Shown: piece by piece, positions 2,392-58,854 of the stretch
Layout: each line of letters opens with the position of its first letter
Position numbering within the stretch: the first letter of the stretch is position 1
From: Sipunculus nudus
Taxonomy: Eukaryota > Annelida > Sipuncula > Golfingiida > Sipunculidae
Direction of reading: 5' to 3'
NCBI GenBank assembly: GCA_026874595.1
Contig: CM049316.1
Location: forward strand, 64,399,176 to 64,463,175
DNA: 64,000 nucleotides
Notes under the pieces: generated by a model
Told to the model about the DNA's origin: nothing
Databases searched by the model: none
Seen by the model: the letters and a program-made list of their open reading frames with translations, nothing else
Program-made: the position numbers and the translations under genes

Positions 2392-2395
<4 letters not shown>

Positions 2396-2444
<49 letters not shown>
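2396..2444. repeat. (AT)n microsatellite in intron 3 of copy A
   Basis: About 24 uninterrupted AT dinucleotides follow a short CT-rich run. The corresponding intron of copy B has a (CT)n run at 16438-16476 and a (TA)n run near 16527-16566. Confidence 0.9.

Positions 2445-2447
<3 letters not shown>

Positions 2448-3402: not shown

Positions 3403-3405
<3 letters not shown>

Positions 3406-3452
<47 letters not shown>
3406..3452. repeat. (AT)n microsatellite abutting the exon 5 acceptor of copy A
   Basis: Near-pure AT repeats run directly into the TCAG acceptor before exon 5, so no pyrimidine tract separates them. Copy B has the same arrangement at 17612-17659. Confidence 0.9.
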
Positions 3453-10659: not shown

Positions 10660-10661
10660 AA

Positions 10662-16300: not shown

Positions 16301-16439
16301 GTGTGCACCAGAGAGGCGGTCAAGTCTATGAAAGAATGGGGCGTTAATGACGGTCACGTGATACAAATCAACAGGCAAGTTCAATCTTCTAAACCGGTGT
16401 TATCATTCAGATGGAATCATCATCAAGATATTGTAGCTT

Positions 16440-16475
<36 letters not shown>

Positions 16476-16524
16476 AGGGAAGTATATAGTATATATAGTA
16501 TTCTGATTTTTACTGTAGACCTCT

Positions 16525-16570
<46 letters not shown>

Positions 16571-17606
16571 TTATACACTTTATATACATATATATATAAA
16601 TATATATAAATGGAAGCACATACACATACAGCCACATCCAGTAGTCTTGGAAGTAATTGCATACGGTAAACTTTATAGTAGCCCTAAATAAACATTCTCA
16701 TCATCTTCACTATCAATCACAGCATAGCCGGTAAGCAGCTGGGAGCCCATTTCATTCCCTTCTACTCAGCCACCAAGAGGGCGGTGTCGGCCATGGCGGA
16801 GGGACTGAGAAACGAACTCGTAGTGATGAACTCCCGCATAAGAGTCAGCGTAAGTTGTAAAAATTCCCCTTTGGCCAAAATGTGCATGACACCCATAGCA
16901 ATTCAAAAAATGAATAATAAAAATTGGGCAATTTGTTAAACAGTTTAGAGCGAAGCGATGGGTGACGCCATCTGCTGATGTTACTGTAGACCACTGAATA
17001 ACTGTCTAGAAATATAAACATAAAATACCTTCTTCTTGAATTTTAATAGCAGGAAAGATATAAAAAAAAGCCTAACACGTATTAGAGAGGTGGTTATATG
17101 CAGAAATGGAAAAGTAACTAGTGGCAAAATGCCTTGCACAACTGTGATTCACCTGACGTTCCACCAGATATCCTTGTTGAATGTCGTTGGCTGTTTTTGC
17201 GCCCCCAATGTTATAAACACATGATTACAAACAAAACTAATAGACTGTGTAAGGTGTTATTGATGTTTTCTGGTCTATTTTTTAAAGGCTCGAGTGATAA
17301 TGGACGTCAGTTATCGCAGGTTTTCCCTTTAAGTTTTTTTTCTTGTTTCAGTCAGATTTAACGTACATCATTATTGGATATTAATTGTACTTATATTTTA
17401 TGTTTTTCAAAATGCAGTCAGGGTAGCATATACTCTGGACTAGTTTATGTGGATATAAATTCCATCTGTTGTTACATAAAAGTAATTTAATGAGTATATA
17501 ACTATTAAAATAAGGATATTTTGCATTTGTATAATGTATATGACGTGTATCTTATTCCCCGTCTTTTCGTATGTGCCCGTTTTGGCGAAAAAATACATAA
17601 AAATGC

Positions 17607-17662
<56 letters not shown>

Positions 17663-19072: not shown

Positions 19073-19862
19073 CATAAGTTGTGGAAGGCGAAGTAACTGA
19101 AAACAAATAAGATATATATTCTTTCAAAAATTTACTTTGTGAACATATCGACAAAACTCGTCACCAGTTGACTCTTTTGTTATTATTAACATATATTAAT
19201 TTCGATTAGGATCGTTGATAAACTAAGCCTTGCAATAACTGAAATTTAAAAAATGAATTGTGAAACATAGAGAAGAAAATTGTATATAAAGTGTTGAAGA
19301 TCTTCTTCCGATTGTTCGTTGTCTATGAACGAGAAAAAGAACGAAAATGTGAACTCGGGGTTCGAGCTGATCACGCTGACTCCAGAAAGACGAGACCCGC
19401 ATCAGCCTCTTCACCAATGACGAAAGCTCTGACAAGTTAAGATTCCACTTATTGGCCTCCACATACTGTATGGAGAGAATGAAGCGAAGTATTTGAATGT
19501 ACATGTATAATTGAAACGAAAAGGTATCCAAGACGCCATTCCAGGTTAGCTCCAGACCATTCGATACCGATGTTAAGAAGAGAAGTTGGACAAACCAGCA
19601 AAGCAGCAGTACCACGCCAACTCAGCGACGACCGCTTGATCACCCCGGCAACCAGCATGCAGATAGTTTGGCGCTTGTCAACGACTTTTACAACGAATGA
19701 CGACAGAGCAATCTTTTTCTTCACTACCTGGTTATCTTTGAACGCGTTAACACTTATCAATTAGGTTACGAATGTTGTCGCCTATACCTTCGTCCCCAGT
19801 GGTCGAGACGATATCTTACTGTGAGGCATTGTATACATTTTTGACGCAGGGCAGAGGGTAGC

Positions 19863-20432
19863 CCATAAGAATGAACTCCTCAATTGCTTTTTTTTCAGTG
19901 ACTGACGCATTGTGGAGTCCATAGATTGCACCTGCAGTTAACTGTGATTATAACACTCCATACACAACTGTAAGATTTAACATATATCCATTGATTATTG
20001 TTCAGTACATCTATGTTTATTGTATATTTGACCACTAGAAAACATTACTGTTCTCTTCTCAGCCCTATTTTGCACCAAGGAAGTTAAAATATGAACATAA
20101 TTGTACATAGGCCTAAAGCCTTATACAGGACTGCCACCAAATGCAAGATGTCTACCGGGGCTGTTAATGCTTCAATTCTCTCTGGACAAACACTATCAGT
20201 TGTTAAAGTTACAGGTGCTTCATGCTTTCCAGAATGGTTATTTTTTATTACAGGCCTTTCGACATACAACATTATGTGAACATTGGTTTGCTAAAACCAC
20301 AGGAAATATTTTTATTCAATTTCCTTTCTAAGAGTAACAGATCGTATCGTGCTATAACCTCAGTTAGCCCTTTGGTGGGCCGGCGACGCAACAGAAACCT
20401 GAAACCTGTTGCGTCGACGTCGGCGGCTAGGT
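19863..20432. mobile_element. 570-base insertion flanked by a 10-base duplication, absent from copy A
   Basis: AGAGGGTAGC occurs at 19853-19862 and again at 20433-20442, while copy A has one such site (near 5435), so this is a filled site with an empty paralogous counterpart. Near the right end an 11-base perfect inverted repeat (20384-20394 and 20406-20416) forms a hairpin with an 11-base loop, followed by CTAG at 20427-20430. The hairpin plus CTAG recalls Helitron 3' ends, but Helitrons leave no target duplication. A 9-10 base duplication suits Mutator-like elements, though no long terminal inverted repeats are visible. Several overlapping frames of 60-76 codons are present without recognisable motifs. 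Confidence 0.65.
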
Positions 20433-20585
20433 AGAGGGTAGCGGCAGCCTGCCACCAATGCAAACGTCGATTTTAATGACCTGAAGACGTTGAGGTGGCA
20501 GTACAAGCTATGATGTTCGGATCATTTCTAGTATAAGTAGATAATCACGCCGTTTCAAAAGGTACCGTTTTTCATTTTTATCTGC

Positions 20586-29400: not shown

Positions 29401-32400
29401 TGGCAACACAAGTGCCCCGCCGCTGCTACTGCTTGGACGTTTTCTCCAAGACAAGAAAATGCGATTCCCCGTTAATTGATCTAAAGTCTAAGACCTTTCC
29501 ATGCAGGTACTCAGCCCATGCCATTAGGATTTTTACCGTGCGCATTGAATTAAGAAAGGTGGTAATGTGAAGCATATATGTATCACTTGGGCGTACATAT
29601 ATTTCCAATATATCATTTACACGGTTGTGGTCTATAACTAAGATTCTTCAAATAATACCGAAAACAGACCCCGGGTGGCAAGTGAGGTTGGGGGTGGGGA
29701 TGGTGGTTCCTGCACGTTTTTTTATCAGATGCGCAGGCCGTTGGCCTAAAATTTGGGCAGTGGGTTCCATCTCGGCAAAATAAAAAAATGTTATCTACCC
29801 AGTGAACTTTCAAGGGCAATTTTATGAACAATCATCAACCCTACTCAGTATTTGTTTTTACAATGTTTAACTCCCGGCCATTTTCGATCACAAGCAATGA
29901 CTCTAGGTTTTACATATATTGGGGAAATATAGACATATTTTATATAATGAATATTATTGCTTTTAGAAGTTAGAAAAAAAACTATCCAAATTTGTATTAT
30001 ATAAAGTGTAGTTTATATATAAGCAAATCAACGTATCCTAACATATATGTCAGCAAAACCACGAGCAGCGGTTTTCACTGGGTGATTTTACAGTCATAAG
30101 CAAGGCAATATAATTGAAATTAGATCCCTGCTTATGTCGCGTCCAGCTAAATCTGTGAACCTTTGATGAAGTGCTTATGCTCATTTAGCGACCTCTGGGA
30201 CTGGACGTCCCCGTATACCCCAATACAGAGCGTGCCCGCGGGTCAACCAGCGCATACTTCTAAAACAGACTCCGGTTTTCGTAATGATCTCAGTGCAAAG
30301 TAGACAATTCTTGCGGGGAAAATAAATCATATGTTAATCGTATTTTCCATGAAGCTATCTTTTTTTGTTGGAGGTAAACGCCACCACTTTTTAATGCTTA
30401 CTTGTCTTATTCTTACGCTACGTATTTACATCTGCAGAGTTCCATTTCGGTTTGGGCTACGTGACAGGGCGGTAGCACTCACTTCCTGTCATATCCTGTT
30501 TTATTTCATATCCTGGTGTCACCCAGACTCGGTGTCTACCGCACCTGCAATTCCTTGTTGTTATCTCCCCTTTATCTGGGACATAAAACCGAGGAACCTC
30601 CCAAAGACGCACTTGTGAGTGGTACACGGCTGTCGGATACAGCCGTACCATTAAGCTTGCAGAGCCCTCAGCCTGGGTTGGGTCCGATCGTAAAAATCTC
30701 ATGACCTCCCGGCTTTGAGTCCTGCGCTCTACCCCTACAACATGAGCCACAGAACCCATATAAACTATCGTTATTTCACGTTCATTTTACAATAACCTCT
30801 ACGTCTATGCTTTTCTTTCAACTGAGTTGTCCCAAGACATTAATTATATGTTTTTTTTTAATATTGGTGGAGGTAACACCGTACATTTTTTATATATTTC
30901 CTTAACTAATAACTATGAACATTTGAAGAATTCCATTCAGGTTTCTGACTAGGTGACAGGGGTTCACACGCTACAACCAGGCTGTACCGCTCTTACAAGT
31001 CCTAGGTATATGTGTCATACCTTCCGCAGGTTCATAACACCAAGGAAACCCCAGAAGGCGCACCAGTTTGTGAGTGAAACAGGACTGTTAGCCACAGTCT
31101 CCCCATTAAGCTTGCGGGGGCTCAACCTTTGGCGGAGGCTGACCGTAAAAGATCTCACGGCTGAGATACGAACTCAAGCTCTGAACCCTGTGCGCTACCT
31201 CCAGACCACCGAAGACGGTTTAACATAATGAACAATAATGCAGCATAGTAAAAAATGTGGACTTACACGTCACATTCCATTCAATATACACTGTGTAGAA
31301 ATGTACCTTCATTACATGACAGGGAAAATTATCATATATAATTAGCATATTAAGCGCCGTATCTACAGCCCATTAAAAATCCCTATATATAGTTCCTCTT
31401 GCGGGCATACATTATGTAAGCAGCTCATAAAAACATATAATGCAGGGTTTTGAAAAGATAATCACAAAAAAGACACGAACAATATTTGAATAGGACAATA
31501 AGGTTGCTGCAAATTGAAAACAAGTGACCCATGGGTCAAGACGCTCAGCTGACTGGGAAGAGATTTGTAAAAGGAAATTTTATCATCTGAATGGTAGTAT
31601 ATAACCATTGAACTGAAGCATCAAACAGATTAACCAACAGGCTGAGATTGTGTCTGTATTAATATATCTCAAAAATGGAGAAAAAATGAGTAAACTTTAA
31701 AAAAAATACAGGTGGCTGCAGAAACTAATAAAAACACTTAATGGTCAAAGAAGCATGGTGGTCTCTGGATTAGTTGTTCAGATACTTCAGCTTTTGTATC
31801 AAATTTTCCATTATTCTGAGCTGTATCAAATTTTTCATTATTCTGGGGGGGGGGGGTATTTTGGAACCATACAGCTTAATGGATATGGGTAACAGAGACC
31901 TAATTTCAGGTTTCCATGGAGATTTTTCATGGGTCTCCCCGAGTGTAAAGAATGAAAATTCTAGGTCCAGTTGTTATGATTTGTGCAAGGTTAACAGATG
32001 TTCATATCTTTAAAGGTCTCAAAAATAGAGAAAAAACTTCGAAAAAAAGCCCGAACAAATATATGTGGTGCCACCAGGCCGCAGAAATTGATGAAACACT
32101 CCATGATCAATATCCATACAAACAACTATGGTGATCTCTGCATTAGTTGTTAAGATACTTCAGCTATTGTATCAAATTTTCCATTATTCTGAGCTGTACT
32201 TTGGAGTACTATAGCTCAAAGGATATGGGTAACAGAGACCTAATTTCAGGTTTCCATGGAGACTTTTCATGGGTCACCCTGTGTGTCAAGGATGAAGATT
32301 CTAGGTCCAATTTGAACCCTGTTGACAGATAACTACATCCATAAAGGTCTCAAAAATAGAGATAAAAATTGTAAAAATTTGAAAAATACAGGTGGCGCCA

Positions 32401-35400
32401 CCAGTCTGCAGAAACTGATGAAACATCTCATGATCAATATGTATGCCAAAAATTATGACCATCAGTGATGTAGTTAATCAGATATTGAAGTTTTTTAAAT
32501 GAAATTTTTGACTATTCTGGGGGGTACTTTGGGGCCCCATAGCTCAAAGAATATGGGTAACAGAGACCTTATTTCTGGTTTCCATGGAGACTTTTCATAG
32601 GTCTCTCAGAATGTTAAGAATGAAGATTCTAGGTCCAGTCTTTACGATTTGTGCCCTGTTAACAAATGTCCACATTTTTAAAGGTCTCAAAAATAGAGAA
32701 AAAAATTCGTAAAAAATAAAAAAATAAAGGTGCCGCCACTAGTCTGCAGGAACTGATGGAACATCTCATGATCAATATGTATGCCAAAAATCATGACCAT
32801 CAGTGATGTAGTTAATGAGATATTGAAATTTTTGTATGAAATTTTTGACTATTCTTGGGGGGTACTTTGGGGCCCCATAGCACGAAGGATATGAGTAACA
32901 GAGACCTAATTCCAGGTTTCCATGGAGATTTTTCATGAACCTTTCTGGATGTAAAGTAAGAAGATTCCAGGTCCAGTAGTTACGATTTGTGCCTTGTTAA
33001 CGGACAGACGGCCGGATGGCCGGACGACCGGACGGACGACGGACAAAGAGTGATCGCTATAGCTCAGATTACTTACAGTCAGCTGAGCTAATGATAAAAA
33101 AAAAATGATTTGAAATTTCAGTCGCACCATGCCAAAACATGCTTGGGATGAAGGGACCAATCTGGATCGCATTAATTCAATTAAAAAAGGATGGTTTCAT
33201 TTTGCGTATACAGTAGCAGCTCCGTTCTTGCTCAATTATTCAGGAACAGACGGATACAACAGAGCTGTGGCCATTCATTTTTAAAATGTCAACCACCAAA
33301 AAAAACCTGCATTTACGCCTAGCAACCTGGGTTTTCAAGTAAAAGCGATACAATTTCGGAATCAGGCACGATATACACCTTTTCTAAAAGGTACCTCTAG
33401 GCTATAGCGAACTTAACGGTGCTTTACATGGAGGGTCGAAATAACGCCTTTTGGCTTGTCTCATACAGGCAAACACGTGACATTAATTTTTCATTTGCTA
33501 CCAATGCTTTGGAAAAGTTAACAACTGTATGTTTTCTACATTAGTAGCTGGATAAGTAGTACCAAACATGATACAAAACGAAAAAAATTAGAAGTGGTGT
33601 TCCATAAAACTTATAAAAATGGTCTACAAATTCTTATACTTGCTGGCATTTAGACCCTTATATCCTTTATTGTTCCGTGTGTTTTTTTTTTTCATTGCAA
33701 AATTGAGTGTCTGATATAATAGTGTTACTGTTGAAAACATTCAGTTTTTTTTTCGCATGCAAGTGAGCACGTAAGTTTGCAGAATCAGATTTACACTGAG
33801 CGAAGTGTGACTGGAAGTTTGATATGGTGGTAGGAAAGGCAAAAGTGTATTAATGTTTTCTTTGGAAAGGTGAAAATTTCAAAGTATTACGACCCCTGAC
33901 CTGGATTCATGGACTGTAAAGTAATTAGCTCCAACACAAGCAGGACTATCAACATTGGCCACTGAACCTTTACTACGAACCAATTTTAATTGTTAAGCTA
34001 ATATTTTCCTTCAGTTAGCAGAAACAATAGAATAATGTATTAGCAATATTCTTATAATTTATAGTTATAAACTATACTATATGTATATATGCATTATTTG
34101 TGAGGATATAAATAGTGGGTTATACGAGAGTATTTATTGTAGTCTCTTTATGTATAAATGATAGAACCCGGGGAAAATGGTAGAACAAGTAACACTGGCG
34201 TTAAACAATATAAAATACAAAAACTAGGTATTAGCATTCAAAGGAATGCAAGCCTCCGCCATGTTGGGGTCCTATCAGGGATGCTCCAAAAACCATATTT
34301 TCATTTACTCGATTCTTCATCGGCCCATTCCCGAAATGCCCTAAATATTTCATGAGATTCTTTTATGATTACGTGAGTTATGATGTAAACATACACACAC
34401 ACACACAAAAGGGGATGAATGCATACCCTCATGGTGGACGCAAAGAGGGAGTATTTTTTTTTAGCTTTTCCTGATTAAACGCCATGCAAATCACATCCTC
34501 CTTCGGGCGCAGCAACACTGTGAACTGTCATATGAGTGAAGGCACAACGCCGCTGGGACGCAAATCATCAGAGAGCAAATGTGCTTTGATTTGACCAATT
34601 TTCCCTGATCTTGTGTCAAGTTTGAAGAAGTATGTGAATTTCTTTTTCCATCAAATATGACGACTAGGAATTCAAGGTCATTTGTCTTTCTTTTAAGGCT
34701 CATTTCGCCTTCTCTGTGTCAAAATATGCTTGACTACATGTCCTTCATATTGCTGTTTGACGTCATCACCCATACTTTAAGTCAAATAATACGAACTCCA
34801 CTGTTCACAAAAATGACTACAAAGCAATCAGCGTCATTTTTCAATGGCACGTGTTACAAGTAAACGGTAGCTCACGGTTTAAAAAAAAGGTGATGATCGC
34901 CAGCAAAATTGACGGGCCGGTTTGTCCCAAGTGGACAATATGATTGATTTCAACGCTGCCGGGGCGACAGAAAAAAAAACTAAAGTTTTTGACGGCCTCT
35001 ACCGTGTTTTATCGAGACCAGCTGAAAGATTACGCCGTCGATGCATTAATCCAGCCGCTGCGGAATTATACAACAGACATACAATAGAGCTTCAGTTCTT
35101 GGCCGAGTCCGATAACATTCATAGCGTTGTCCATGGTGTATATTACCGTCTCGTGGGTAATGAGGGATTGGTGTGGTTTTCACGCGTTTCATGAACTGTA
35201 AATGCGGCTCCGGGTATGATTATATATAAGCCGCCCTTTTTTTCGTCGTTTTTATCCCACATGACCTTCTCTGGTTCAATCTCCTCCGTGACGACCGCGG
35301 ATCAATCCCATGATTCTTTGAAGAACAGAAATAACACGGTTAATAATAATATCTTTCCAGCCTGCTGTCCACCGTCCATTCAGTCTCCAACGTAAGCATA

Positions 35401-40851: not shown

Positions 40852-43280
40852 TGTTTTTATACGAAAAGAAATTTCAACGATGTCAGGGTCAAAGAATTTT
40901 CACTTTTTTTTAAAAGTCTTGGTTCCCCGGGATGCAGTCATCATAGTTACCGGGGAGGTACCCGCTTCACAGGCTCAAAAACGAAAAAGACTGGTATTCA
41001 TTCCCTCCTGGGCTTCTTTACCTAAAGACCTTGACCGCACTTGATATATATACACACACTCAGTCTGTACTAAAATTGACAGTGTCACTATAACGTTGTC
41101 ACGTAACTCCTCCCTGGCCACGCTCGTAAAATTCCCGTGTTTTCTTTTTTTTTATCTTAAACTGAAAGGGACTATGCTCTGTGTTTCATTTTCCCAGTTC
41201 CCTTAATAACCCTTGTTAATTTAACATCATATACGAAATTTCTGCAAAGGATCTATTGCAGCGCTATCTATCAGAAAAAAAAATATCCAACGGAAGGATT
41301 CAGCCCATGAGAAACTTTCCTAGACGACGGAAAAAAAAACCGTGGGGGACCTATCCCAATGCAAAATCTGCTTGTATTTATAAATTGTATTTCAAATTCA
41401 ATTTGAATTTCATCTTTTTTTTCTTTTTCCTGATAAAATGTTTGGTTCAAACAAGGACTGAATGTCTACAGATGGGATTGTAGAAGTGGTTGAGCAAAAC
41501 ATTAATTTCCAAAGCATCCTGGCTAGACAGGGAAAAAAATATAATTAAATATGATTCCTCACAGAAGATTGCAGGATAGCTCACAAAGATCCATGAGATC
41601 ACGAAAAGATATTGACTGAGAACAGAGAAACCCTGCCGGATGGATTCATGATATGTCGAATTTTTACGTCTACTCTTTGATGGCGGAAATAAAGCATTTT
41701 TCAGGTTCATTTAGATCCGATTTGAGCCCGGGAATATTACCGAACATGCAAGAAAATAAGAGTTCAATATGCATATAATGAAATATTTTGCTATGTGAAC
41801 AAAATTAAGATTGACGATAGGAAGAACTATTTACAGTGCCATTTAAAGAACGGTACAGGGCTCCTCAAAATCTGAATGCGAGGACCTCCTCATTAAACGA
41901 TATTTAAGAGGGCCCTTCAATGTATATTCCTCTTTTACTTCCGGCTGCAATGCACGGTATGGAACAATGGTGTGTGATCTTGTGATCTTGAGTATGAAAA
42001 TAACCGTTTGAAGTGCTAAGGGATGAAACATTAAAAATACGGATTTTATTTATGAAGTCTGCTTGAAGAACTGTAATTTTGTGCTTCAAGCTTTGGTTAA
42101 ATCCATTGATCAGCTTTACGTGCCAGTTTAATCTGCCAAGTGGAATTAACAGGGAACTGTCAAATCAAGTATTTGGTTTCGATCTAAAAAGCTCATTCCT
42201 TTAAAACGGAAATAATTGTCCGTCATGATTTGACAATTTAATCAATAGAACCCATTTGGGAATGGCGGTAGAGGAAAACAAACAGGTCGCGTGACAGAGT
42301 TGTCTGCTTTCGAGAATGCTTGGTAATCTGAAAATTGATTGATTTTAAGTCCAACCTGATATTTCACTTAATATTAAACTATACATATGTAAATGGGGAC
42401 TAATGAAACCCTCTTTTTGGAATAATTTTCAGAGGAGACTTCAATTAAAATACAATAAGTTTCCATACTCGAAGGTTTAATTTTCACAAGGGGCTTAAAA
42501 CCTCGAGAAATTACTAAAATTGCTGTCTAAAATTGCTGTAACACAGTAACAGACATATCCGTATTTTCATCGTTGGTCGTCATGGCGGTCGCTTACCAAT
42601 TTCCATCGATTCTTTGACAATCGATTTCGAAAGTTTTCACACTACCCTTATGTCAAACACAATCTTGCTTATTCATTGATTTCCGTGGTCGACTCGTATT
42701 TTATGAGTTTCAAATCTCAAGGGTTTATAACTTTGGTCAATGATTGCTAATGCTAATGAATATCTTGTTCATTGTTTTAAAATAATAGATCCATATAGTA
42801 TGTTGGTGGAACTGTCAGCTGAATGTGAAAAAAACAGACCATACATGAGAATTGTGTATTACTTTAATTTTTGCTTCTCATAATTCTTGTGTGTGGGGCC
42901 TAGGTATAAATTATGTTAGTGGTATATGAAATAAAATTTCAATGATATTTTGAGTATTATAAGAGTAACATGATTTCAGCTGAGCTAAGCCAAGGAAGGC
43001 TTTGTACTGTCTTTGTCACAAGTAACGGGCATGATCTGCTCTCTTAACTGTTAATGACTATTACAGCTATATAACATGACGACAATTCACGACGTTTTCC
43101 TAAGACTTAGACGGGTAATAAAATACCCACTTAATCTGTTCAAATATGCCTGTAGAAAATTTGTGGGCCACGGAACGTGACCTAAGGTCACAGGGTCCTT
43201 TAATATTCATGGGAAAGGAAAATTTGTAGAGCAGTAATACATTTGGAGAGCTTTGCTACGATTTGTGCGACGCTCAGTTA
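40851..43280. other. Unassigned DNA left of the foldback element
   Basis: No gene is recognised; several short frames of 60-90 codons are AT-rich and unconvincing. At 43177-43191 GTGACCTAAGGTCAC is a perfect palindrome of two receptor-type half-sites in everted order, about 90 bases outside the foldback element. Confidence 0.35.
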
Positions 43281-43592
43281 GGCCATGGGCTAGTGGGGGT
43301 CATAGTGCACCCCCTTGTGATTTACTTTAATAGGTATTTTCATGTAGCCCTAGGTCTAACAATTCAGAAAATTGATGTTGCCAGCAAAAAAACTGGGATG
43401 GAAGATACCTCCCATGGACTTTTTAATAACGCCTACTTTTACAGCTGGAGGCAGATAATTAGGGGTATGGAAAATCCAAACAACCCTCACTTTGCAACTC
43501 TTGGCCAAAATATTTCAAATGACCACTTAAAATGTTCGCCTTGTCAAGATCTACCAGTTCATGCAAATGATATGCAAATTTATTTTGTGAAA

Positions 43593-43629
43593 AGGTCACT
43601 AGAGGTCAAAAGGTCACAAACTTTGACCT
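43593..43629 (+). promoter_or_regulatory. Cluster of four nuclear-receptor-type half-sites inside the foldback arm
   Basis: AGGTCA occurs at 43593-43598, 43603-43608 and 43611-43616 (spacers 4 and 2, the DR4 and DR2 layouts), followed by an inverted TGACCT at 43624-43629. The same three-site cluster is kept inverted near 47485-47510; in the third copy near 48280-48305 the outermost site is altered. It has receptor-binding potential only; no gene start is close. Confidence 0.4.
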
Positions 43630-44569
43630 TTCCCTATTATTTCTCGTATTATCAGGTCTAATTTATCGCCAAGACCATATGAAGTTTTTTTTAATTGAAA
43701 ATTAATTAAAATGAAGGTTTACATGTGCTTTTTAAAACTTGGAGTCAAAACGTTTGAAAAGAAGTAGTGATTACCCCGCGGTTTGTAAGATATTTCTGCA
43801 CTTTTACATACTTTTTGTACGTATTGCCGAATGTGCTGAATAGGAGTAAGGCAAAATCTAACAATGGTACTTTGAAATCTTTCATTGAATCTTTGCAAAT
43901 GACCACCAAAGATTATATTTGTGTGTTTCTATAAAATGAAACATAAATTATGCAAATATTTTCATCGAAGTGTTTGTTGCAGTCAAAAGTAAACAAAGGT
44001 TGACCTCACCAACACCATAGCTGTTTGTTACACATATTCGTTATGAAGCGTGCCACGAAACTTTAATATTAAAACAAATGTATGTTACTTTCTTTCTTTC
44101 AATTAACACATTTCCAGTTAACATTCATCCTAATTTTTACCAGTTTGTATCTTATTTTATGACAGTAACATATGTTCTTAGATAGTTGTCACTGGTTTAT
44201 TGATCTCTGTTAACAGCAAATCCCTAATTTAAATTTGACTAGTAACAGCCAATCTATTATTTGTTGCATAAATACATGTACTCTTATATCACATATATCA
44301 ATTTCTATTACTAGTTGATAATATATTAGTTATTATAATTCATGTAATAATTGATAATTAATTCTCTGAATAAATATAGGATCTGTTTTTGTGACACAAA
44401 TCAATTATATGTCTCCCCTCACTACGAGCCTAACTTTCCCAAATTTGAGGGAACAAATGGACCCCTTCAAAAGTTTGGTGTTAACTTAAATCCTGCATTT
44501 CTAAAGATTTTACCTTGTATGATGATGATCAAGTTTACCAAGTTATGATCTGATCTGAGATTTTATTTT

Positions 44570-45330
44570 TTATTCTGATTGATTTAACCTTGAAGATTCA
44601 GGTCAAGGTCACCAGTTATCGAGCTCCTCAAGAAACTCTATTAATAAATAGTGTTTCAAATTTGAGGGAAAATATGTGACACTTCAAAAGGTATCGGATT
44701 CAAATTTTTTTTTTTTCATCCAATATAACCTTGATGATGGTCAAGGTCACCAGATTTTTAACTGGTCCGAGATACAGGTAGAGACATTTCAGAAGTTGAA
44801 TTTCATAAAAATATATCAAGTGATTCAAAAGTTATAGCGTTCAAAATAATTTCTATTCTTGCTGATTTGACCTTGAATATCCAGATCAAGGTCACCAGTT
44901 ATCAAGCTCCTCAAGGGAATTAATTAAAACATTGGTGTTTCAAATTTGAGGGGAAAATATGGGCTATTTCTAAAGTTATCGGGTTCACAAATAATTGTTT
45001 TAGCCAATTTACCATGATGTTGAAGGTCAAGGTCACCAGTTTTCGAACTTGTCCGAGATGTTGGCAGAGACATTTCACAAGTCAAATTCAATGAAAATAT
45101 ATTGGGTGGTTCAAAAGTAATAATGTTCACAAATACTTTCTATTCTGACTGATTTGACCTTGAAGATCCAGGTCAAGGTCACCAGGTTTCAATCTCCTTA
45201 AGGAACTTGATTTAAACAATAAGCGTTTCAAATATGAGGAAAAAAATATACAATACTTAAAATTTATGGGGGATAATGAAAGATAAGGTCACCGGTTTTC
45301 GAACTCCTCCAAGATTTTGGTAGAAACAAT
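44570..45330 (+). repeat. Satellite-like array of about 143-bp half-units (dimer about 285 bp)
   Basis: Six diverged half-units recur, each carrying AGGTCAAGGTCACCAG or a close variant: near 44600, 44739, 44884, 45026, 45170 and 45278. Alternate units share GATTTGACCTTGAA (44864, 45146) and GTTTCAAATTTGAGG, which gives a dimer period of about 285. Each unit contains TCAAGGTCA or a near variant, the extended half-site shape of NR5A/ERR receptors. Confidence 0.7.
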
Positions 45331-45585
45331 TTAAATTTTAAATTTCATGAAAAATTGATGAATCGTTCCAATGTTATCACGCTAACAAAATATGACACAG
45401 ACGATGACGATAGTATGATAATTGTGATAATTGATTAAAATTGCAATTTTAGAAATGAAGCGATCTTTATATTTATGGCCCAGGGAATAAGCTCACAAAA
45501 GTGTGACTCCTTGGACAATTAATCTTATTCTGATAGCTGAACGCTCTTAAGAGGGGGTGTGTTACGGGTTTACATAAAAGCCGAC

Positions 45586-45680
45586 CGAACTGTCTCACTA
45601 GTGAAGCTTGCTTTTCTAGCGAAACGATTGGAACGCTGGGCATGTGCGCCACCGACATGGGTTCGAATCCCGGATCGGCC
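45586..45680 (+). mobile_element. tRNA-like sequence with intact B box (SINE head or tRNA relic)
   Basis: GGTTCGAATCC at 45660-45670 is a perfect pol III B box. It is followed by CGGATCGGCCC, which can pair partly with GCCGACC near 45590. The upstream half is too irregular for a functional tRNA. It lies in the left inner part of the foldback element and is not mirrored on the right. Confidence 0.5.
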
Positions 45681-46300
45681 CAGAATTATCCCCTGAAAAT
45701 TTGTCTTCGTAACAGTATTCGAGCAACTGCATATTCCATTGATAAATACAGAAACACTGCCAGTGGGGTTGCCAGTCAGTCAGACTACCACAGACAGTCA
45801 GTAGATAGGCAGAAGGGACAGTCAGATAGACCTTCACAAAGCTTCTCAGGCAGTCACTGATATCTGATTTGATTTTGACTAGCTCTGGTGGCAAACAATT
45901 TTTCCAACACCTGGTTATGACTGTAGCTGTTCATCTGTCATGGTCTTTCTGACTCACTTGCTCTCTAAAGGCCAGCCTGTTTGATATATTTATTATTTAT
46001 CTGGTGTGTTGTCTCCTAGACGATTAGTTAGCTAGTTCTCTGGAACGATATATACCTGATAGTCAGATTGATGATTAAAGCTCTGGCTCTTGCATTTATG
46101 TATCGTTGAACAAAGGGGACGCCGTCTTGTGGATTACCAGTCTGGTAGTCAGAAAATAACTGACCACCTGTCGACCAGAAACATTGGTATAAAGACAGCT
46201 GGACTACCAGAGTGTTAGCTAATTAATCAAACAGACTGAACACCGCTAGAGCTATAGTCATCAATCTGACTATCAGGCAAATATCCTCCCAGAGATATAG

Positions 46301-46340
46301 CTGGTCTGACTGTCGATAGCTGGTCTGACTGTCGTATCTG
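46301..46340 (+). repeat. Short tandem repeat at the foldback centre
   Basis: A 19-base unit (ATAGCTGGTCTGACTGTCG) occurs twice in tandem, within a central region dense in CTGACT/AGTCAG motifs on both sides of the axis. Confidence 0.7.
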
Positions 46341-48617
46341 ACTATCTACTGACTATGTGTATTAATCTGACTTACTGCCAATCCAAATGGCAGTGTTTCT
46401 GTATTTTTATGGACTATGCAGTTGTTCGAATACTAAAAACACAAACTGTCTGTCAGTCAGATATTTAGTCAGAGAGATAGACATTAAATCAAACAGAAAG
46501 TATGATGTACCGCTGGAGAGAGAGTCATTTGATCAGAGTCAAAATGAGAAACAGGTGTACCGGTTAGATAGTGAGCCAGCCTGTCAGAGAGTTTTTTCGT
46601 TCAAGATGATAGACAATAGACATGACAAGCCAACGAATAGACTTACAGACAGTCATAAGTTAAACCAAATGACTGACAGAGGTCCATATATAAAATAAAC
46701 TAGACTACCAAAGTCCGCCAAAATGTACGGAGGCAGGCCATTAATGTATAAGTATAAAAGATCGCTTCATTAATAAAACTGCAATTATCACAATTATTAT
46801 ACTATGACGAACTCAGTAATAAATCCAGGTGAGATATAATATTAATCATATGTAATTAATGAGAGATTTAATTATCAATTATAATATGAAATATAATAAC
46901 ATATATTGTATACTAGTGATAGAAATGGATATATGTGATATAAGCGTATTTATCCCCCCCCCCCCCCCCCAATAATATTTTGGCTGTTACTAGTCAAATT
47001 AAGGGTTTTGCTGATAGCAGAGATCAATGAACCAGTGACAAATATCTAAGAACATATAACTGTCATGATATATGATACAAACCGGTAAGAATTAGGATAA
47101 ATGTTAACTGGAAATGTGTTAATTGAAAGATAGAAAGAAATATACATTTGTTTCAATATTAAAATTTCATGGCACGCTTCATAACGAATATGTGTAACAA
47201 ACAGCTATGGTGTTGGTGAGGTCAACCTTTGTTTACTTTTGACTCCAACAAACGCTTCGATGAAAATATTTGCATGATTTTTGTTTCATTTTATAGAAAC
47301 ACACAAATATAATCTTTCGTGGTCATTTGCAAAGGTTCAATGAACGATTTCAAAGTACCACTTGTTAGATTTGCCTTACTCCTATTCGGCACATCCAGCA
47401 ATACGTACAAAAAGTATCTAAAAGTGCAGAAATATCTTAGAAACCGCGGGGTAATCACTACTTCTTTTCAAACTTTTTGTTTGTGACCTTTTGACCTCTA
47501 GTGACCTTTTCACAAAATAAATTTGCATATCATTTGCATGAACTGGTATATCTTGACAAGGCAAGTGGTCATTTGAAATATTTTGGTCAAGAGTTGCAAA
47601 GTTAGGTTTGTTTGGATTTTCCATACCCCTAATTATCTGCCTCCAGCTGTAAAAGTAGGCGTTATTAAAAAGTCCATGGGTGGTATCTTCCATCCCAGTT
47701 TTTTTTTGCTGGCAACATCAATTTTCTGAATTGTTAGACCTAGGGCTACATGAAAATACCCATTAAAGTAAATCACAAGGGGATGCACTATGACCCCCAC
47801 TAGCCCATGGCCTATGTTAATTGAAAGAAAGAAAGTAACATACATTTGTTTTAATATTAAAATTTCATGGCACGCTTCATAACGAATATGTGTAACAAAC
47901 AGCTATGGTGTTGGTGAGGTCAACCTTTGTTTACTTTTGACTGCAACAAACGCTTCAATGAAAATATTTGCATAATTTATGTTTCATTTTATAGAAACAC
48001 ACAAATATAATCTTTGGTGGTCATTTGCAAAGATTCAATGAAAGATTTCAAAGTACCATTGTTAGATTTTGCCTTACTCCTATTCGGCACATTCGGCAAT
48101 ACGTACAAAAAGTATGTAAAAGTGCAGAAATATCTTACAAACCGCGGGGTAATCACTACTTCTTTTCAAACATTTTGACTCCAAGTATTAAAAAATTTTC
48201 AATTAAAAAAAACTTCATATGGTCTTGGCGATAAATTAGACCTGATAATACGAGAAATTATAGGGAAAGGTCAAAGTTTGAGACCTTTTGACCTCTAGTG
48301 ACCTTTTCACGAAATAAATTTGCATATCATTTGCATGAACTGGTAGATCTTGACAAGGCGAACATGTTAAGTGGTCATTTGAAATATTTTGGCCAAGAGT
48401 TGCAAAGTTAGGGTTGTTTGGATTTTCCATACCCCTTATTATCTGCCTCATGCTGTAAAAGTAGGCGTTATTAAAAAGTCCATGGGAGGCATCTTCCATC
48501 CCAGTTTTTTTGCTGGCAACATCAATTTTCTGAATTGTTAGACCTAGGGCTACATGAAAATACCTATTAAAGTAAATCACAAGGGGGGTGCACTATGACC
48601 CCCACTAGCCCATGGCC

Positions 48618-49074
48618 TAAGTGTTTACATAGAAGTACTCAATACGTGTTTAGCATAATAGGGACTGTAACTGACAATGCTGCTTTATACCGTATATTTT
48701 TATATCTGGCCAAACAGATAAATATTTTACATATCTCTCATATTTTCTTGCATATACTGCAAATGTAGAATACATTCCATATATTTTCTACTTGAATGGT
48801 TAAATAATAATAATATATGAGCTTCATCTCATTTTTTTTCATTACCGTACTGATGTGCATTTATCTAGACTTCTACAGAAAAGTTTCGTTACAGTTGTAC
48901 TTGATGGTGTTTTATCTGTGTTTTTAACCAAGCCACATTTTATGTATTTAGGAACTCCGTTGCATACGTTTCACTACGTAACTCTACTATAAATGTGTAC
49001 TTATATTTTAGCTGTACTTACGTGACTGCGTTTTTGCTTGAAACCCTGTTTGATGTCATTTAAGTTTAATGGAC
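48618..49074. other. Unassigned AT-rich DNA right of the foldback element
   Basis: I see nothing in it beyond AT-rich sequence. Confidence 0.35.
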
Positions 49075-50990: not shown

Positions 50991-52110
50991 ACATGAGTCA
51001 ATCAGGCCACGTTCAATGAAGTAATCAATATCCTATGACCTTGGCCATGGAATGAGGACATTCCATTATTTGATCCATAGAAAGTCTAATTTTTTTATAT
51101 TCTATTTAGCCATGGAAGGTATACTTTTAATGGTCTGAGCCATAAAATGCACATTATAAATTGTAAAAAAAAACAACAGTGAACTCATAACTCATATAAT
51201 AACTGGCCTTTATCTGTTCGTGTATCTTAATTCATGACCTAGAGTATTCTTATCAGGTGTTTCGGAGGGAAATGTCCGTCGTTAAATACAAAGTTTATTG
51301 TATATGGCTAACTGTTTTACTGCTCATAACAACGCCGTATATTTACCCTACACTTTAAACGTCCGACTTAATAATCGCCCTGTGTTAAATACAATTTCAC
51401 AATTGTATTTACCCGGGCCTTCTCGACACCAAATTTATTTGTCATCCGTTATAACGCATTCCAATTAATAAACTGCTTTTATGAAGTACAGCTTTCCGTG
51501 AACAAAATATCCATACATCCACAGAGAAGGATACTAGTGTTAACATTACACTACATGTCAAAAGTAAAACTTTTAAGTGGAAGGTAATCAGTGCCTGTTC
51601 GGAAATTGAAGTTTCAATTGGAAATCTATTGACAGAACAGATCAGTAGTACATTGGGTACACTAACATAAACGAGTCTCATCCTCTGTCTCATGTCCCTG
51701 TGTTTGTATTAGCAATAACTTTGGGAATGACTCCTACATTGGGAAATAAAAAAATATATAAGTATGACCCATATCTTTATCTAGATTTTGATACATTCTT
51801 AAACAAAAAACAATTCTACAAAGCACAACCTCATAAATTTCAAACGGACTTAATTCCAAATTGAAAAAAGTATATTAAATCTTCTTACTTCAGAATGACG
51901 ACTTTTTAAAATTGCTAATCTATGATTGGGTCATCTATGTTTAGCCAATGAATGTTAATGGTTCATTTTAGAGACTGATAGACTAATATTCTCCAGTGTT
52001 TACTAATATAAAACACTTTGCCCTCCATAAGAAAACCTGTTCGTATATATTAGCAAATATAATTTTCCATAAATTTTCACGATTAGAAGTTCTAGTTGGC
52101 ATATTGTAAA

Positions 52111-52380
52111 ATGAAAATCAACTGTGAAGCGTTCCAGTATTTTGTTTGCGTGACCGTATATATGACTGTAGGGATGTTGATATTTTATATTGCCGAATCG
52201 ATATACGCAGTTTTATACCGGAAAGTGTTTCACACAGCGAGTGTGACCCGAGGGACCCGAAAGAGTTATTTCCTGGGCGGTTGTCTGATGTTTGGAATCT
52301 ACTTTGAGATCCATAAAAGTATACAGGCTTTAGTAGCTCATCGAAATGTACCATTAACGCCAGCAGCAAGAGGTCATTAA
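52111..52380 (+). pseudogene. Hypothetical 89-aa hydrophobic ORF, probably a remnant
   Basis: ATG at 52111 starts an 89-codon frame with a hydrophobic stretch at residues 11-33 (FVCVTVYMTVGMLIFYIAES), a basic middle and a second weakly hydrophobic segment. Upstream in frame the paralogue in block B is open (HDEKFLLAYCEVK), whereas here the same positions hold two TAG codons (H-D-stop-K-F-stop-L-A-Y-C). The frame was probably longer in the ancestor, making this a relict. The block B copy is interrupted by a CA/TA microsatellite. The protein family is not recognised. Confidence 0.35.
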
Positions 52381-54231
52381 AATGTGTGTTGCCAAATGAA
52401 TGAATATTGATCTCTTTTTCGGTTTTGCAAACCACAATTCGGTCGAATTTAAATAACTTGAGATTAATCATAATGACTTGAAATCTAAAGATGCCCATTT
52501 TTTTACCAGGCAAATTAGGTATCGATGCAATGCAATGTTTTTTTCCTGAAAATATATGTAAAATAGTTTCTGCCTAGTATTAAAACCATTAGCGTAAACG
52601 CAAATTCGGTAGAAATAATCTGGTGCGATCAGCTGACGGGAAGAAAACGTTAACCTGGTGTTCAGGACTAATATCTTAAATCAAGATTGTGATTACCATT
52701 AAAAACTAAATGTATATGTGGCTCATAACAAACACATCCCCACGTTTTCCCGCAGGGACAAATAATATCTTGGCTCAGGTGTTTGAATAGTATACCGGAC
52801 ACACTTGGATTGAATTTATCTAAGCACAACTAAAATAATATGTAAACAGGTGAAAATGAGAGACTCGTTCTGTAAGCCGAGATGGTTGCGATAGTAAACT
52901 TCTGTATACAGTTAAACTCATCGTGGAATATAATACACGTTGTGACAATATACTTCTATCCTCTTAGGACTCGAAAGCAGGTATAATGTAGATTGAAAGA
53001 TAATCATGAATATGCATGACGGGTAACTTGGTGTGTGGTTTAATCAAATGGTTCAAAATCTGAAAGGTGATATTCCAGACTTGATTCTGGTTTATTAAGA
53101 TATATGGACCAAAATGTTATACGAGAGTCGAACTTCAGCGCGTTATAAGGGTTGCTGTTTTTTAAAATGGCTTCTGAAATGAATAATATTTGAACTAATA
53201 GAAGTAATTGCTGCTTGTCAAATCGATGACTGGGTGATTTAGAAAGAATATGGAGATTGTGTTGCCTTGGTCATGGAAATTTTAAATATAACATTATAAT
53301 TATGGTTTAATCAAAGGGAGTTAAACAATACTTATGGCCCTATCATATTTATTTAAATTCTAAGGGAATTAGAAATTTGTAAATATCTGCAAAACAATCA
53401 TAGTTTTGTATGTTACTTTCATCTTTTTATGAGAATTCAGAAACCGAAAGCATGTTCTTTCATTTTCTATTTAGTAAAAGAGAATCGATTTATAAAGTTA
53501 ACAAAAGTTTGGAAATGAGACGTTAACGAAGAAGATATTTTACTTATAATATAAACATAGAAACAACATTTTATTGAAGCAAACTTGTCGATATTGTAAT
53601 TTTATTTTACATGTTCACAAAACTAGTAAAATTTATATTTTTGTTTTAAAGTTTAGTTAGATGCCCCAAGTGCCTCTAGATTATAAGACCCTGTAATGCA
53701 ACCCGATCAGTCTTGCGCTGTCCTCGCTGTATGGCAAACAGCTCTTTAGTGGGAAGACGGAAAACATCTACGATATCATGGCTGATTGATGACTTTTTGT
53801 GTTACGTCATGGTAATGCCCCGTGGAGATCATTTCAATATAACCAATTTTTTTTGTGTTGATATTGCAGTGAAGATAATTTAAATTTATATCGGATTAAG
53901 GCTATTAATTTTGATTTAGTTAGATTAATTTTACATGAATACGTCTGGTGGCATAGGGTAATGAGAATAAGATGACACCTAGCATGCTGTATTCATTACC
54001 GTGTGTCGCTAAGCAGCCAAGGGATATTTGCAAATTTGCTTTTGCACGTACAAACATTTATTTTAACACAGGCGTCATTTATTATTAATAATAAAATAAT
54101 AGATAGTATTTATATAGCAACAATTTTCCGATTAATCAGTCTCACAGTGCAATACACACACACATACCTCCTCACGCACACACACACCAATATCCAGTCA
54201 CAAAGTACAATTTCACGGAAGCCTACTCCCT

Positions 54232-54651
54232 GTGCTTCTTGTTAAGCCCACTTTCTTTCTCACCTTCTCTCGCGTGATTATTCATTCTAACTGGCTTAAT
54301 AAAAACAACGGAAAAAATATATTAATGACCAAAAGCTTGCCGAGGGCCATGAAACGAAAGGAACGTTTATCATATCGTTGCCGACTTACGATGCCTCAGG
54401 ATGTCAATGTCAACCTATTGTTATTTTTATATATAGCGTTTATCGATTTAGAGTTGAGTGATTTTTATCACAGTATATATCACGATATATCTCTGAACTC
54501 CTTTAATGAATGGTATATTACGACATTTAAATTTTGGTCTAAGACTTTTTTGGTGACTGTTATATGCCATAAAATAAGGTCCTGTTCATATATTTCTACG
54601 GTTAATATGAAACCCCTGCCCATGCCATTTAACACAGCAAAGCTCGATTAA
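54232..54651 (+). other. 139-codon AT-rich ORF, probably not a gene
   Basis: The frame is open for 139 codons but rich in Asn, Ile, Phe and Lys as expected of AT-rich DNA. The matching part of block B (about 58100-58330) does not keep it open. No domain is seen. Confidence 0.2.
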
Positions 54652-55159
54652 CAAGCCTTTGAGGTGTATTTAAAGCAAGAACAATTAAGTAGTTTTTCTT
54701 CGAATAAACTATATCCAAACCTCTGAACTAACATAATACATAGGTTGCGAACCCTGGAGTTGCATTTATCATCCATAACTCATAGAGTTACACAAATATT
54801 CTCTGGTATTAATTGCTTAACATAAAGTAATGTCATTTTTGCAACTCTATATATAAGTCTTTGTCTGGCAGTACTTAAATATCCCTACATCGCCATAATG
54901 GAGCCATGACCTTGCCGCCCACACATAGCATGTTCATACAAATCTAGGAAACAGATGATGTATATGGTAATTCATCTAGTTAAAAAGGGCTTTTAACCAA
55001 TTTGGTATTTTATCTGCATAACTGCATATTACTGCAGTCGGACTGAAAGCTAGGTTTTGGTAATTGGCAAATGCAGTTTCACACCGTTACTAATTTAACA
55101 ATACTCGCACGACTAAAGGGACCTGGAGAAATTTATTTATTTATTTTTTATTATTTGCA

Positions 55160-55262
55160 GAGGCCGGATATTGTAGAACACAGCAAATGGCAATCAGAAA
55201 AATTGTTCCTTCTTTAAAGTCTTTAAAACAATGATCATGTTATTGGCTGAATCCTCCTTTGT
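55160..55262 (+). mobile_element. Fragment of the LINE 3' end (same family as 60490-61640)
   Basis: GAACACAGCAAATGGCAATCAGA, ATTGTTCCTTCTTTAAAG and AAACAATGATCATGTTATTGG correspond in order to 61272-61345, where the LINE's last coding part ends. It sits at the junction between blocks A and B. Confidence 0.6.
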
Positions 55263-55344
55263 GGCTTAATTCTACTTCCTATAAATATAAACTTAATTTA
55301 TTTTACATGGATTTAACAACTAGTTATAATAACTAATACGAGGC

Positions 55345-55525
55345 ACTCTCCAGGGCCCGGATGTTGACGCTCGGAAGTTCTTATGGGTCGAGGAAACCGG
55401 AGGACCTGAGAAAACCACCGGTCTTGGACGGGCAACTATAACCCACTCTCATAACAACGCCGGGAATCGAACTCGCCAGTGGAGAACACCGAGCGTTTTA
55501 CCACTCATCTGTCCAGGCCTCCCTA
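55345..55525 (-). mobile_element. tRNA-derived SINE with B box
   Basis: Read on the minus strand, AGTTCGATTCCC (55473-55462) is a near-perfect pol III B box. Upstream GATGAGTGGTAAAACGCTCGG provides an A-box-like region. The body contains CCGGTGGTTTTCTCAGGTCC and CCGGTTTCCTCGACCCATAAG, familiar from tRNA-type SINEs in aquatic animals. Confidence 0.7.
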
Positions 55526-55544
55526 TGGAATGTGCTGCCTAACA

Positions 55545-56990
55545 CCATGAACATGAGTCCATTAGGTCAAACAATCTATATCCTAAATAACCATGGCCAT
55601 GTAATTTGGACATTCCATCATTTGATCCATAGAAGGTCTACATTTTTTTCAATTCTGTTTAGCAATAGAAGGAATACTTCCAATGGTCTGAGCCATAAAT
55701 ATTCACAGTATAAATCGTGAAAGCAGTACAAACAGTGAAATAAGTATAAATAACTGGTCTTTCTCTGTTTCATGTCACTTTACATTACTACCTAAAGTAT
55801 TCTTATCATGTGTTTGGGAGCGAAATGTCAGTCGTAATAAACAGGGTTTATTGTATTTGTCTCACTGTGTCACTGCTCCTAACGTATATTTACCCTACAC
55901 TTTAAACGTCCAACTCAATAATTTCCTTGTGCTATCCAGACTTTCTCTTGTATTGACTCGGGCCTTATCGATACCAAAGTTATAATATTAGTCACGAATT
56001 TCCATCCATTATCTATTGTTATGAAGAACAGCTGCCTACGCATTATTCAACTGGAATACTATATTCATAAATCAACATAAGAATGAGAGCAGTGTTAAGA
56101 TTACATCACGTGTCGAAAGTAGAACTTGTAAGTGGAAATTTATCGTATTTATTCGGAACTTGAAGTCTTAATTGGATATCTGTTGATAGAATAGTCTAGA
56201 GTCATATATATTCAGGATTAAAAAGAGGCATTCAAACTACCTTCAAGTAATTTACTTTACATAAGCATAGAACATGACACCAGCATCAATTCTTTCATCA
56301 GTCCAATCAAGAACATATTAGACTAAACGTTAACAATGTCATTCAAAAATACAAGTTAACAACTTCACAGAAACTGATGTTGGTTTGATAGTATTCATTC
56401 TAATACAGCATATATTAAATTCATGGGATACAAATATTACTTAGTTTGTTATTTGTGCTTTATTTTATGCATTTGTTATATTTTGGAAGTTACATTTGCT
56501 TTATTCTAGTTCATTACCATTTAACTAAACAGGAAATGGTTGTGTTGGGCATTCTATAACATATATAGATCTCATTTTTTTAATCAACTAAAAAATTAAG
56601 TTATATTCTGCTGATCACACCACTAAGTAAATGTAATTAGTGTATGCCCTCCTGTAAGGACTACCACCATCCGAGCAACTAGTTGTGCAATCCAGCAGGT
56701 AAAATAAAGGAAATTTTTTTACTTAGAAATCTATCATACATTAAGAAATGTATATTCCGTTTTCCTTTCTTTGTTGATGACTTTTCATTTAATATATTTC
56801 TCACGTGTTTTCTAATTTATTAAGTTATATAATGTCATTGTATCACTCTTTCACTCATCATCACGATGAGAAGTTCTTATTGGCATATTGTGAAGTGAAA
56901 AGAAACTGTGAAGGTTTCAAGTATTTTGTTTGTGTGACCGTATATTATATATACACACACACACACACACAAATACACACACATATATAT

Positions 56991-57050
<60 letters not shown>

Positions 57051-58850
57051 GGCTGAAGTGAGGATGACATTCATATTCCCAAATCGATACATGCAAATTT
57101 ACACCCGAAAGTGTTTCGCACAGCCAGAGGGACCCGAGGGACCCGAAAAAGTTATTTCCTGGGTGGTATTGACGTTTAAAGAGACGGTATACAGTTATTC
57201 TAAAATTGTGTCTGCGTTTTATGTTCTTTTTCAGTCATGCATAGTAAATTTTGTGGCCTCTCTGCATGAAACCCAAAACGTTTTAATGGTTTTCTGATGT
57301 TTTGAAAATACTCTGTAGATCCATACAAGTATAAATGTTTCGGCAACACATCGGAAATGTGCTATTTACTCAAACAGCAAAAGTTTATATTCATTGAAAT
57401 ATGTCACTGTGTCGGTCGGCTGATAATTGAAGACATACCCCTTTTCTTACCAGGCAAATTATACATCCAAACAGGGTTCTCCTGAAAATACATGTGGAGT
57501 AGTATCTGGTAAAATTTCGTCCTGAAACCAATGAAAAGAAGGGTATAAAGTAGAAATAAACTTGCATCAGGCGCGATGGGTAGGGGACAGAAAACGCAAC
57601 CATACGGTCCTGCACTAGTATCATTTATTAATATTGTTGCCAACAGAAAAATCATATTTTATTAGTGATTCATTTATTTGTTATTCTATATAATGAGACG
57701 ATGTTATGCAACTCCAAAAGCTCTGCATTGTCCTCGCTGTAGGGAAAACAGTTTTATATTGGGTAGACAGAAAACATCAGCGGTTAGTTTTATCTTGCTG
57801 AATATCTTGTATTATGTCATGGCGTTGCCCCGTAGATGCATCCTTTTAAACGAGATCATTTCAATATAAACGGCTTTATTTGTGTTGATATTGCAGTAAA
57901 GATAATTCAAATTATTATCGGAATGAGGCTATTGATTTTGATGTGGTGGAATTATTTTTACATAAATAAGTCGGAAAGCATAGGAAAGAAGTAAATGACG
58001 CCTAGAGTGCTGTTTTCATTACCGTGTGTCGCTTAGCAGCCAAGGGATATTTGCAAATATGATTAAGTACCTGCAATCATTTATTTTAACACGGGCGTCA
58101 TTTATTATTGCCAGTGTACGCTTCCTCAGGATGTCAATGTCAACCTAATTTTATGTTCATACACGGTAAATCCAATTTAGAGTTGAGAGATTTTCATCAC
58201 AGTATATATATCACGGTGTATCGATGGATTCAGATGATAATTGGTATATTACTACCTTTTAACATTGGTCCAAGAATATTTGGTGACTCTTATAAGCCAT
58301 ATAATAGGATATTAAACCACTGCGCATGACATTTAACACAGCAAACCTCGCTTTACAGGCCTTTGAAATGTACTTAAAGCCAGAACAATTCAGTAGTTTT
58401 TCTCCGAATAAACTATATGCAGACCCCTGAACTAAATTTTTAACCTCTCTCAGAGGCCGAGAATCAAAGAATAGCTTACAACATATATAACTCAGAGAGT
58501 TACATAAATATTCTCTAGTATTTATTGTTTTACAATAAAGTAATGTCATTTTTGCATCTGTATGTCTACGAGTCTTTGGCTGACAGTACTTAAAATGTCC
58601 CTATACATCTCCATTGTAGAGCTATGGCCTTGCCGCCCACACATAGCTTGCTCATATAAATCTAGAAAATAGAAGTGGTATTTGGCAAATTATCTAGTTA
58701 AAAAGGGGCTTTTAACCATTGGGTATTTTGTCTGCATAATAACATCCTACTACAGTCGGGCTGGAAGTGATGTTTTTGTAATTGAAAACTCAACTTTCAC
58801 ACCGTTGCCTTATTAATAATACTCGCACAACCAAAGTGATCTGAAGAAAT
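55545..58850 (+). repeat. Tandem segmental duplication, block B
   Basis: Paralogue of block A (51000-55130). Differences include a CA/TA microsatellite at 56953-57050 inside the former ORF region and an extra stretch of about 115 bases (about 57170-57290) that recurs near 58860-58980. The frame equivalent to 52111-52380 is destroyed. Confidence 0.75.
56953..57050. repeat. (CA)n(TA)n compound microsatellite
   Basis: (CA)n from about 56953 passes into (TA)n to 57050, interrupted twice. It lies within the block B version of the block A ORF (after the VTVY codons). Confidence 0.9.
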
Positions 58851-58854
58851 TTAT

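Follow-up and report, generated by a model that had tools for sequence, protein, structure and literature searches.

A foldback element with a third, internal terminus in the genome of Sipunculus nudus, and the mobile family to which it belongs

The window analysed in our study was a stretch of 64,000 nucleotides of the sipunculan Sipunculus nudus (GCA_026874595.1, contig CM049316.1; C11:64399176-64463175), and the element described here occupies 43279–48619 of it. The element was delimited by self-alignment of the window, by matches to its terminus and by its target duplication. The original prediction, made from the sequence alone, was of a giant inverted repeat with an internal terminus, and the self-alignment bore this out. 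The terminal sequence TAGGCCATGGGCTAGTGG was found exactly at 43279 (forward), 47814 (reverse) and 48619 (reverse); these were the only three matches in the window at up to three mismatches, and 100 shuffles of the window, used as a control for the three copies, gave none. The outermost arm block paired 43278–44108 with 48620–47815 (94.5% over 832 columns), followed by the pairing of 43746–44376 with 47479–46853 (88.3% over 639 columns); 43279–43621 was also found to pair with 47814–47479 (94.8% over 345 columns). The well-conserved portion of the left arm (43279–44376, forward strand) is the partner of both right-hand copies. Three shorter blocks paired across the axis, 45427–45476 with 46797–46748, 45714–45826 with 46434–46324 and 46030–46087 with 46302–46245, forming the inner left arm (45427–46087, forward) and the inner right arm (46245–46797, reverse). 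From this collinear pairing the axis falls at about 46166, next to the predicted position of about 46160. On the right side, the inner arm copy, designated Ri (46853–47814, reverse), has, compared with the left arm, a gap of about 125 bp at 47479, and the outer copy, Ro (47815–48619, reverse), carries the third terminus and does not have the deletion.

Genome-wide searches of the 1.43-Gb assembly showed that the element is repeated, as had been proposed. A search with the first 370 bases returned 242 candidate places, the best 40 of which were scored and matched at 96–100%. The 29-base terminus matched 208 places at up to three mismatches (97 forward and 111 reverse), and its reversed control matched none; 100 of the 208 places were listed, all of them exact. 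We read 31 further copies (L009–L039), giving 32 copies with that of the window. L009–L035 were drawn from the 40 best places, so the sample is skewed to close relatives; L036–L039 were chosen from exact terminus pairs with unusual spacing. The dispersed copies sharing these ends are a mobile family.

The family ends were found to be TAGGCCATGGG...CCCATGGCCTA, with a 3-bp duplication just outside. Five of the 32 copies were set aside before the duplications were counted: L011 had lost its right end, the ends of L020 were altered, L023 had no left end, L028 had a damaged one, and L031 was a fragment. The 27 counted copies, namely the window copy, 22 of L009–L035 and L036–L039, contained TA-GGCC...GGCC-TA or a close variant at both ends. 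The three bases outside the TA were identical on the left and right in all 27, where chance would give 1.9% per copy; the fourth base also agreed, making 4 bp, in only one. In L020, CAG on both sides fits too, by eye, when one base is taken as inserted and another as changed. Comparison of the flanks in the window gave AGT as the duplication, at 43276–43278 and 48620–48622. Insertion sites were AT-rich, with A preferred five bases before the duplication (59%, both strands counted). Some copies lie within tandem arrays, and paralogous empty sites were obtained by comparing array units without the insertion with the joined flanks keeping one 3-bp copy; nine alignments spanned the site. Four had no gap at this position (one of L010 against L033, one of L033 against L010 and two of L033 against L031); in these, the empty site holds a single 3-bp copy and lacks an additional TA. 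The 3-bp repeats outside the TA and the gap-free empty sites show that the element itself ends in TA and that the TA is not its target duplication, as which the flanking TA had been read in the original prediction. All 27 counted copies have a TA immediately outside GGCC...GGCC at each end, as would also be seen in a Tc1/mariner-type element with TA duplications, but the repetition of the next three bases in every counted copy and the empty sites without an extra TA make such an element hardly tenable. The case also shows that a constant TA next to an element may be misleading, the real duplication lying further out.

Three main structural types were found among the copies read, and the other copies of these types matched the window element at 91–98% over most of their length. 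Type C contained a complete right arm and measured 4.63–4.66 kb in eight copies; L032 was shorter and L029 carried a 2.85-kb insert. In type A (4.45–4.54 kb in eight copies) the right arm was deleted by about 125 bp and ended at the position of the window's internal terminus, so that type A copies have their right end where Ri has its terminus (47814). Type B, to which the window copy belongs, consisted of type A plus an outer 805–832 bp with the third terminus, and measured 5.33–5.36 kb in six copies including that of the window; L023, which has no left end, and L011, whose extra part breaks off after 44 bp, were also of type B. L020 and L031 were left unclassed, their damage being too great, and in L036–L039 the arms or the interior were shuffled or inverted. 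The deletion junction was found at 17 genome places at up to three mismatches (the reversed control matched once). Eight of these are type B, and eight of the other nine were read and are type A, the remaining place being C6:34527710. The type B junction was exact at eight places on seven contigs; an additional match with three mismatches, at C9:47039350, is probably ordinary flank. Both duplications could be read in six of the eight type B copies, as AGT, CTA, ATT, TAT, ATA and ATA, and the flanks of the six tested type B copies were unlike one another.

The history of the types was examined with two trees. In the unrooted tree of the element bodies (21 of the 32 copies, with damaged copies, L029 and L036–L039 left out), type B formed a single clade (100/100), and a branch at 100/100 separated A and B together from C, with B lying inside the A and B group. 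The mean p-distance within types was 0.011 for B, 0.023 for A and 0.037 for C, and that between A and C was 0.056. Its divergence together with its complete arm suggests that type C may be the oldest form. The three-ended form B arose a single time and has since reached several places in the genome. In the arm tree (50 arms of 22 of the 32 copies), Ri grouped with the right arms of type A (100/99), and Ro formed a separate clade (99/98) on the left-arm side of a weak left/right split (75/89). A comparison of the arms within the window showed Ri as the odd one out in 27 of 40 differing columns. It had been predicted that the right arm carries its terminal 0.8 kb twice; the second, internal terminus is present at 47814, but Ro does not simply repeat the right arm beside it: the deletion of about 125 bp is absent from Ro, which also has a different place in the arm tree.

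As predicted, no transposase could be recognised in the element. At E-values up to 1, no Pfam family was found in four open reading frames of the window element nor in one of L037, and no frame in L036–L039 exceeded 164 amino acids. Rfam at its gathering thresholds and ARAGORN gave nothing in the window, and a phage collection gave no match. The arms contained a recurrent frame of about 118 codons, and 44 of 58 arms had one of at least 90 codons. Its variable sites numbered 77, 68 and 68 of 122 at each codon position; this even spread shows no coding constraint, and the possibility that the arms are coding sequence was rejected on that ground. In all, no transposase was found among the open reading frames and frames tested (four of the window element, those of L036–L039 and of the L029 insert, and the arm frame).

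The junction of type B reads TTTCAATTAACA followed directly by TAGGCC at the eight places, and was seen in seven read copies besides the window. On the other strand it reads GGCCTA-TGT-TAATTG (47809–47820 in the window, as GGCCTA-TGT-TAA), whereas unbroken arms read GGAAATG-TGT-TAATTG. It retains the exact terminal base of type A, followed by three bases and then by the arm in register, and so matches the right side of a type A copy inserted into the arm of another copy. We consider it most likely that type B originated in this way and that the composite was then mobilised. A foreign transposase would move the family in trans by cut and paste, making 3-bp duplications at AT-rich sites; a type A copy would have inserted into a left-type arm of another copy; the left end of that A copy would then have been mobilised together with the host copy's own end, yielding type B; and the three-ended composite would thereafter have transposed as one unit. 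We give a probability of roughly three in four to the reading as a whole, in which the element is a non-autonomous foldback DNA transposon that has the ends TAGGCCATGGGC and depends on a cut-and-paste transposase acting in trans, and type B derives from a nested and later mobilised A insertion. A C-to-T change in the host arm, at one time thought necessary for the nested insertion, was dropped once the duplication was found to be 3 bp.

Several observations weigh against this reading. The reciprocal junction expected of the founder locus had no match in the assembly at up to three mismatches, and an autonomous partner was not identified. The split that places Ro among the left arms is weak, as noted above, and five of the nine empty-site alignments were not gap-free, three of them (all of L029) being one base off in a run of A and two, of L033, having larger gaps nearby. 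The presumed nested site was only a fair target, ranking 180 of 1104 arm positions with a score of 0.67 against a median of 2.82 at real sites; this test of target preference is neutral. The absence of the reciprocal junction would be accounted for if a broken A end had been joined to the arm of another copy or of a sister chromatid, through abortive transposition or repair. The same junction would result, and the three bases after GGCCTA are plain arm sequence which alone do not prove a target duplication; a precise, unprocessed end would, however, be more usual for strand transfer, and we regard end joining as possible but unlikely. Tandem duplication of the terminal part of the right arm, by unequal exchange or slippage, appears more improbable still. 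Ri and Ro do stand head to tail and are 93–95% alike, and if the duplication came earlier than the deletion in Ri, the undeleted Ro is no obstacle to it; but type A copies have the deletion without the extra end (nine of the 17 deletion-junction places are not type B), the right arms of type A group with Ri and not with Ro, Ri is the odd copy in most of the differing columns of the window, and the breakpoint lies exactly on the terminal base. Long inverted repeats are also difficult to assemble, and a false join of one arm or of the extra end could be imagined, the more so as one read copy, L022, contains an exact local duplication of 735 bp which could be such an error. The three-ended junction is nevertheless exact at eight places on seven contigs, and the six copies tested had unlike flanks and copy-specific duplications, so that an artefact of assembly is very improbable. 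The nested insertion of type A, followed by mobilisation of the composite, is preferred to all of these.

Candidates for the transposase that would move the family were sought among known superfamilies. The termini of CACTA/EnSpm elements are CACTA/CACTG, whereas those here are TAGGCC. Academ elements make duplications of 3–4 bp, a range that includes the 3 bp of this family. We know of no foldback family in Zator or Academ, and the present one would belong to such a superfamily if its mover were a Zator or an Academ transposase. Zator duplications are described as 3 bp (PMC10045372), which is the length found here. A 3-bp duplication is common to several superfamilies and is not diagnostic of either; Zator and Academ fit the mover by duplication length only, and Academ is as possible as Zator. 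The account of one mollusc survey places Zator in bivalves only and Academ in many copies in bivalves (PMC10294476). A single Zator/ISAzo13-like (PF07592) frame was found in the S. nudus genome, at C7:75738369-75738902 (E 2.6e-7, above the curated cut-off), with none in 14 control genomes, and no terminus lay near it among the 100 of 208 listed. The target duplication of PIF/Harbinger is given as TWA (PMC4482050); the duplications here, of which only three of 27 are TWA, speak against this assignment. Harbinger-type (DDE_Tnp_4) frames were numerous in the genome, with 701 candidates; among the 150 of these that were scored, none was seen by eye inside a copy at the listed termini (100 of 208); one, at C3:8596501, lay about 4.8 kb beyond a terminus.

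The left arm contained a tandem array at 44567–45239 with a period of 286, 2.4 copies and 79% matches, and weaker similarity continued to about 45389; as a whole, the array spans 44564–45389 of the forward strand with about 2.4 to 2.9 units. The 286-bp unit had 1267 candidate places in the genome, the best 40 of which were scored. By eye, 26 of these 40 lay in the copies read, nine were no more than about 4 kb from a listed terminus, and five were unplaced, so that the best matches of the unit travel with the element. The array was present in types A, B and C and is thus older than their split. It may have been gained by the left arm or lost from the right arm. The 1-kb satellite array of the original prediction is present, but it is not peculiar to the window copy, since it and the lopsided layout recur in other copies. 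In the arm (43594–43629) and in the array units (44567–45239), AGGTCA half-sites and AAGGTCA motifs occur repeatedly; we take these to be nuclear-receptor-like. Nearer the centre, 45659–45673 reads GGGTTCGAATCCCGG, a stretch also found in L036, L037 and L038, in which ARAGORN detected no tRNA; we take it to resemble a tRNA-type B box, perhaps a captured piece of a short interspersed element.

The long inverted arms occupying most of the element, the repeats within an arm (the array being in one arm only) together with the variation of arm length among copies, and the many copies with target duplications all agree with a foldback element. It had been suggested that the family might be undescribed; the foldback type is supported, and a full-text literature search gave no published description of the family, Repbase and Dfam lying outside that search. 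Mutator-like elements have duplications of 8–11 bp. In the account of Tetris, a foldback element of Drosophila virilis, non-autonomous, non-coding elements with long modular arms and rearranged forms are described, as found here (PMC4079207). The same account gives Tetris tandem repeats of about 220 bp within its arms, whereas here the array is in one arm only, and duplications of 8–10 bp against 3 bp here, the two families being compared by description and not by sequence (PMC4079207). Galileo, of the P superfamily, likewise has arms of varying length with tandem repeats and foreign pieces, but its duplications are 7–8 bp, transposase-bearing copies are known, and the section on variation of its terminal inverted repeats (TIRs) describes no third terminus (PMC4168063). 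In Mutator-like elements with multiple TIRs, an additional terminal repeat is described as standing in tandem with the usual one, and nested insertion is one possible origin discussed for it (PMC3310237). By that account, only one of 12 distinct plant elements with one extra TIR had another copy ('death on birth'; PMC3310237), whereas the three-ended form was found here at eight places. Beside the nine further deletion-bearing places, these eight make a replicated example of a transposon spreading although it had acquired an extra end. We advance only as a doubtful extension that the three-ended composite might be a transposing unit in itself, no less successful in spreading than the two-ended form from which it came, the extra end perhaps aiding end pairing, and that the mover might belong to an undescribed transposase lineage with TAGGCC ends and 3-bp duplications at AT-rich sites.

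Some individual copies and other parts of the window showed further features. In L022, 735 bp of flank together with part of a left arm was duplicated exactly (1104–1838 and 2760–3494), either through a local duplication of very recent date or through an error of assembly. The 2.85-kb insert of L029 (5388–8239), within a type C copy, contained no frame above 113 amino acids. L036 contained 2.2 kb foreign to the window element (3009–5243) with no frame above 95 amino acids, and parts of it resembled the satellite of window 31824–33091. In the window, 849–5588 and 14934–20585 form a direct repeat of about 4.7 kb in several blocks (79–88% identity), and 51023–56194 and 53675–58854 share several blocks of direct repeat with a spacing of about 4 kb (75–87% identity). 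A 33-bp minisatellite of 9.5 copies was present at 10638–11090, open over 120–150 codons in three listed frames, with an 11-residue repeat in the minus frame. A 338-bp tandem repeat of 3.4 copies was found at 31851–33001, and relatives of it were present near several other copies of the element.

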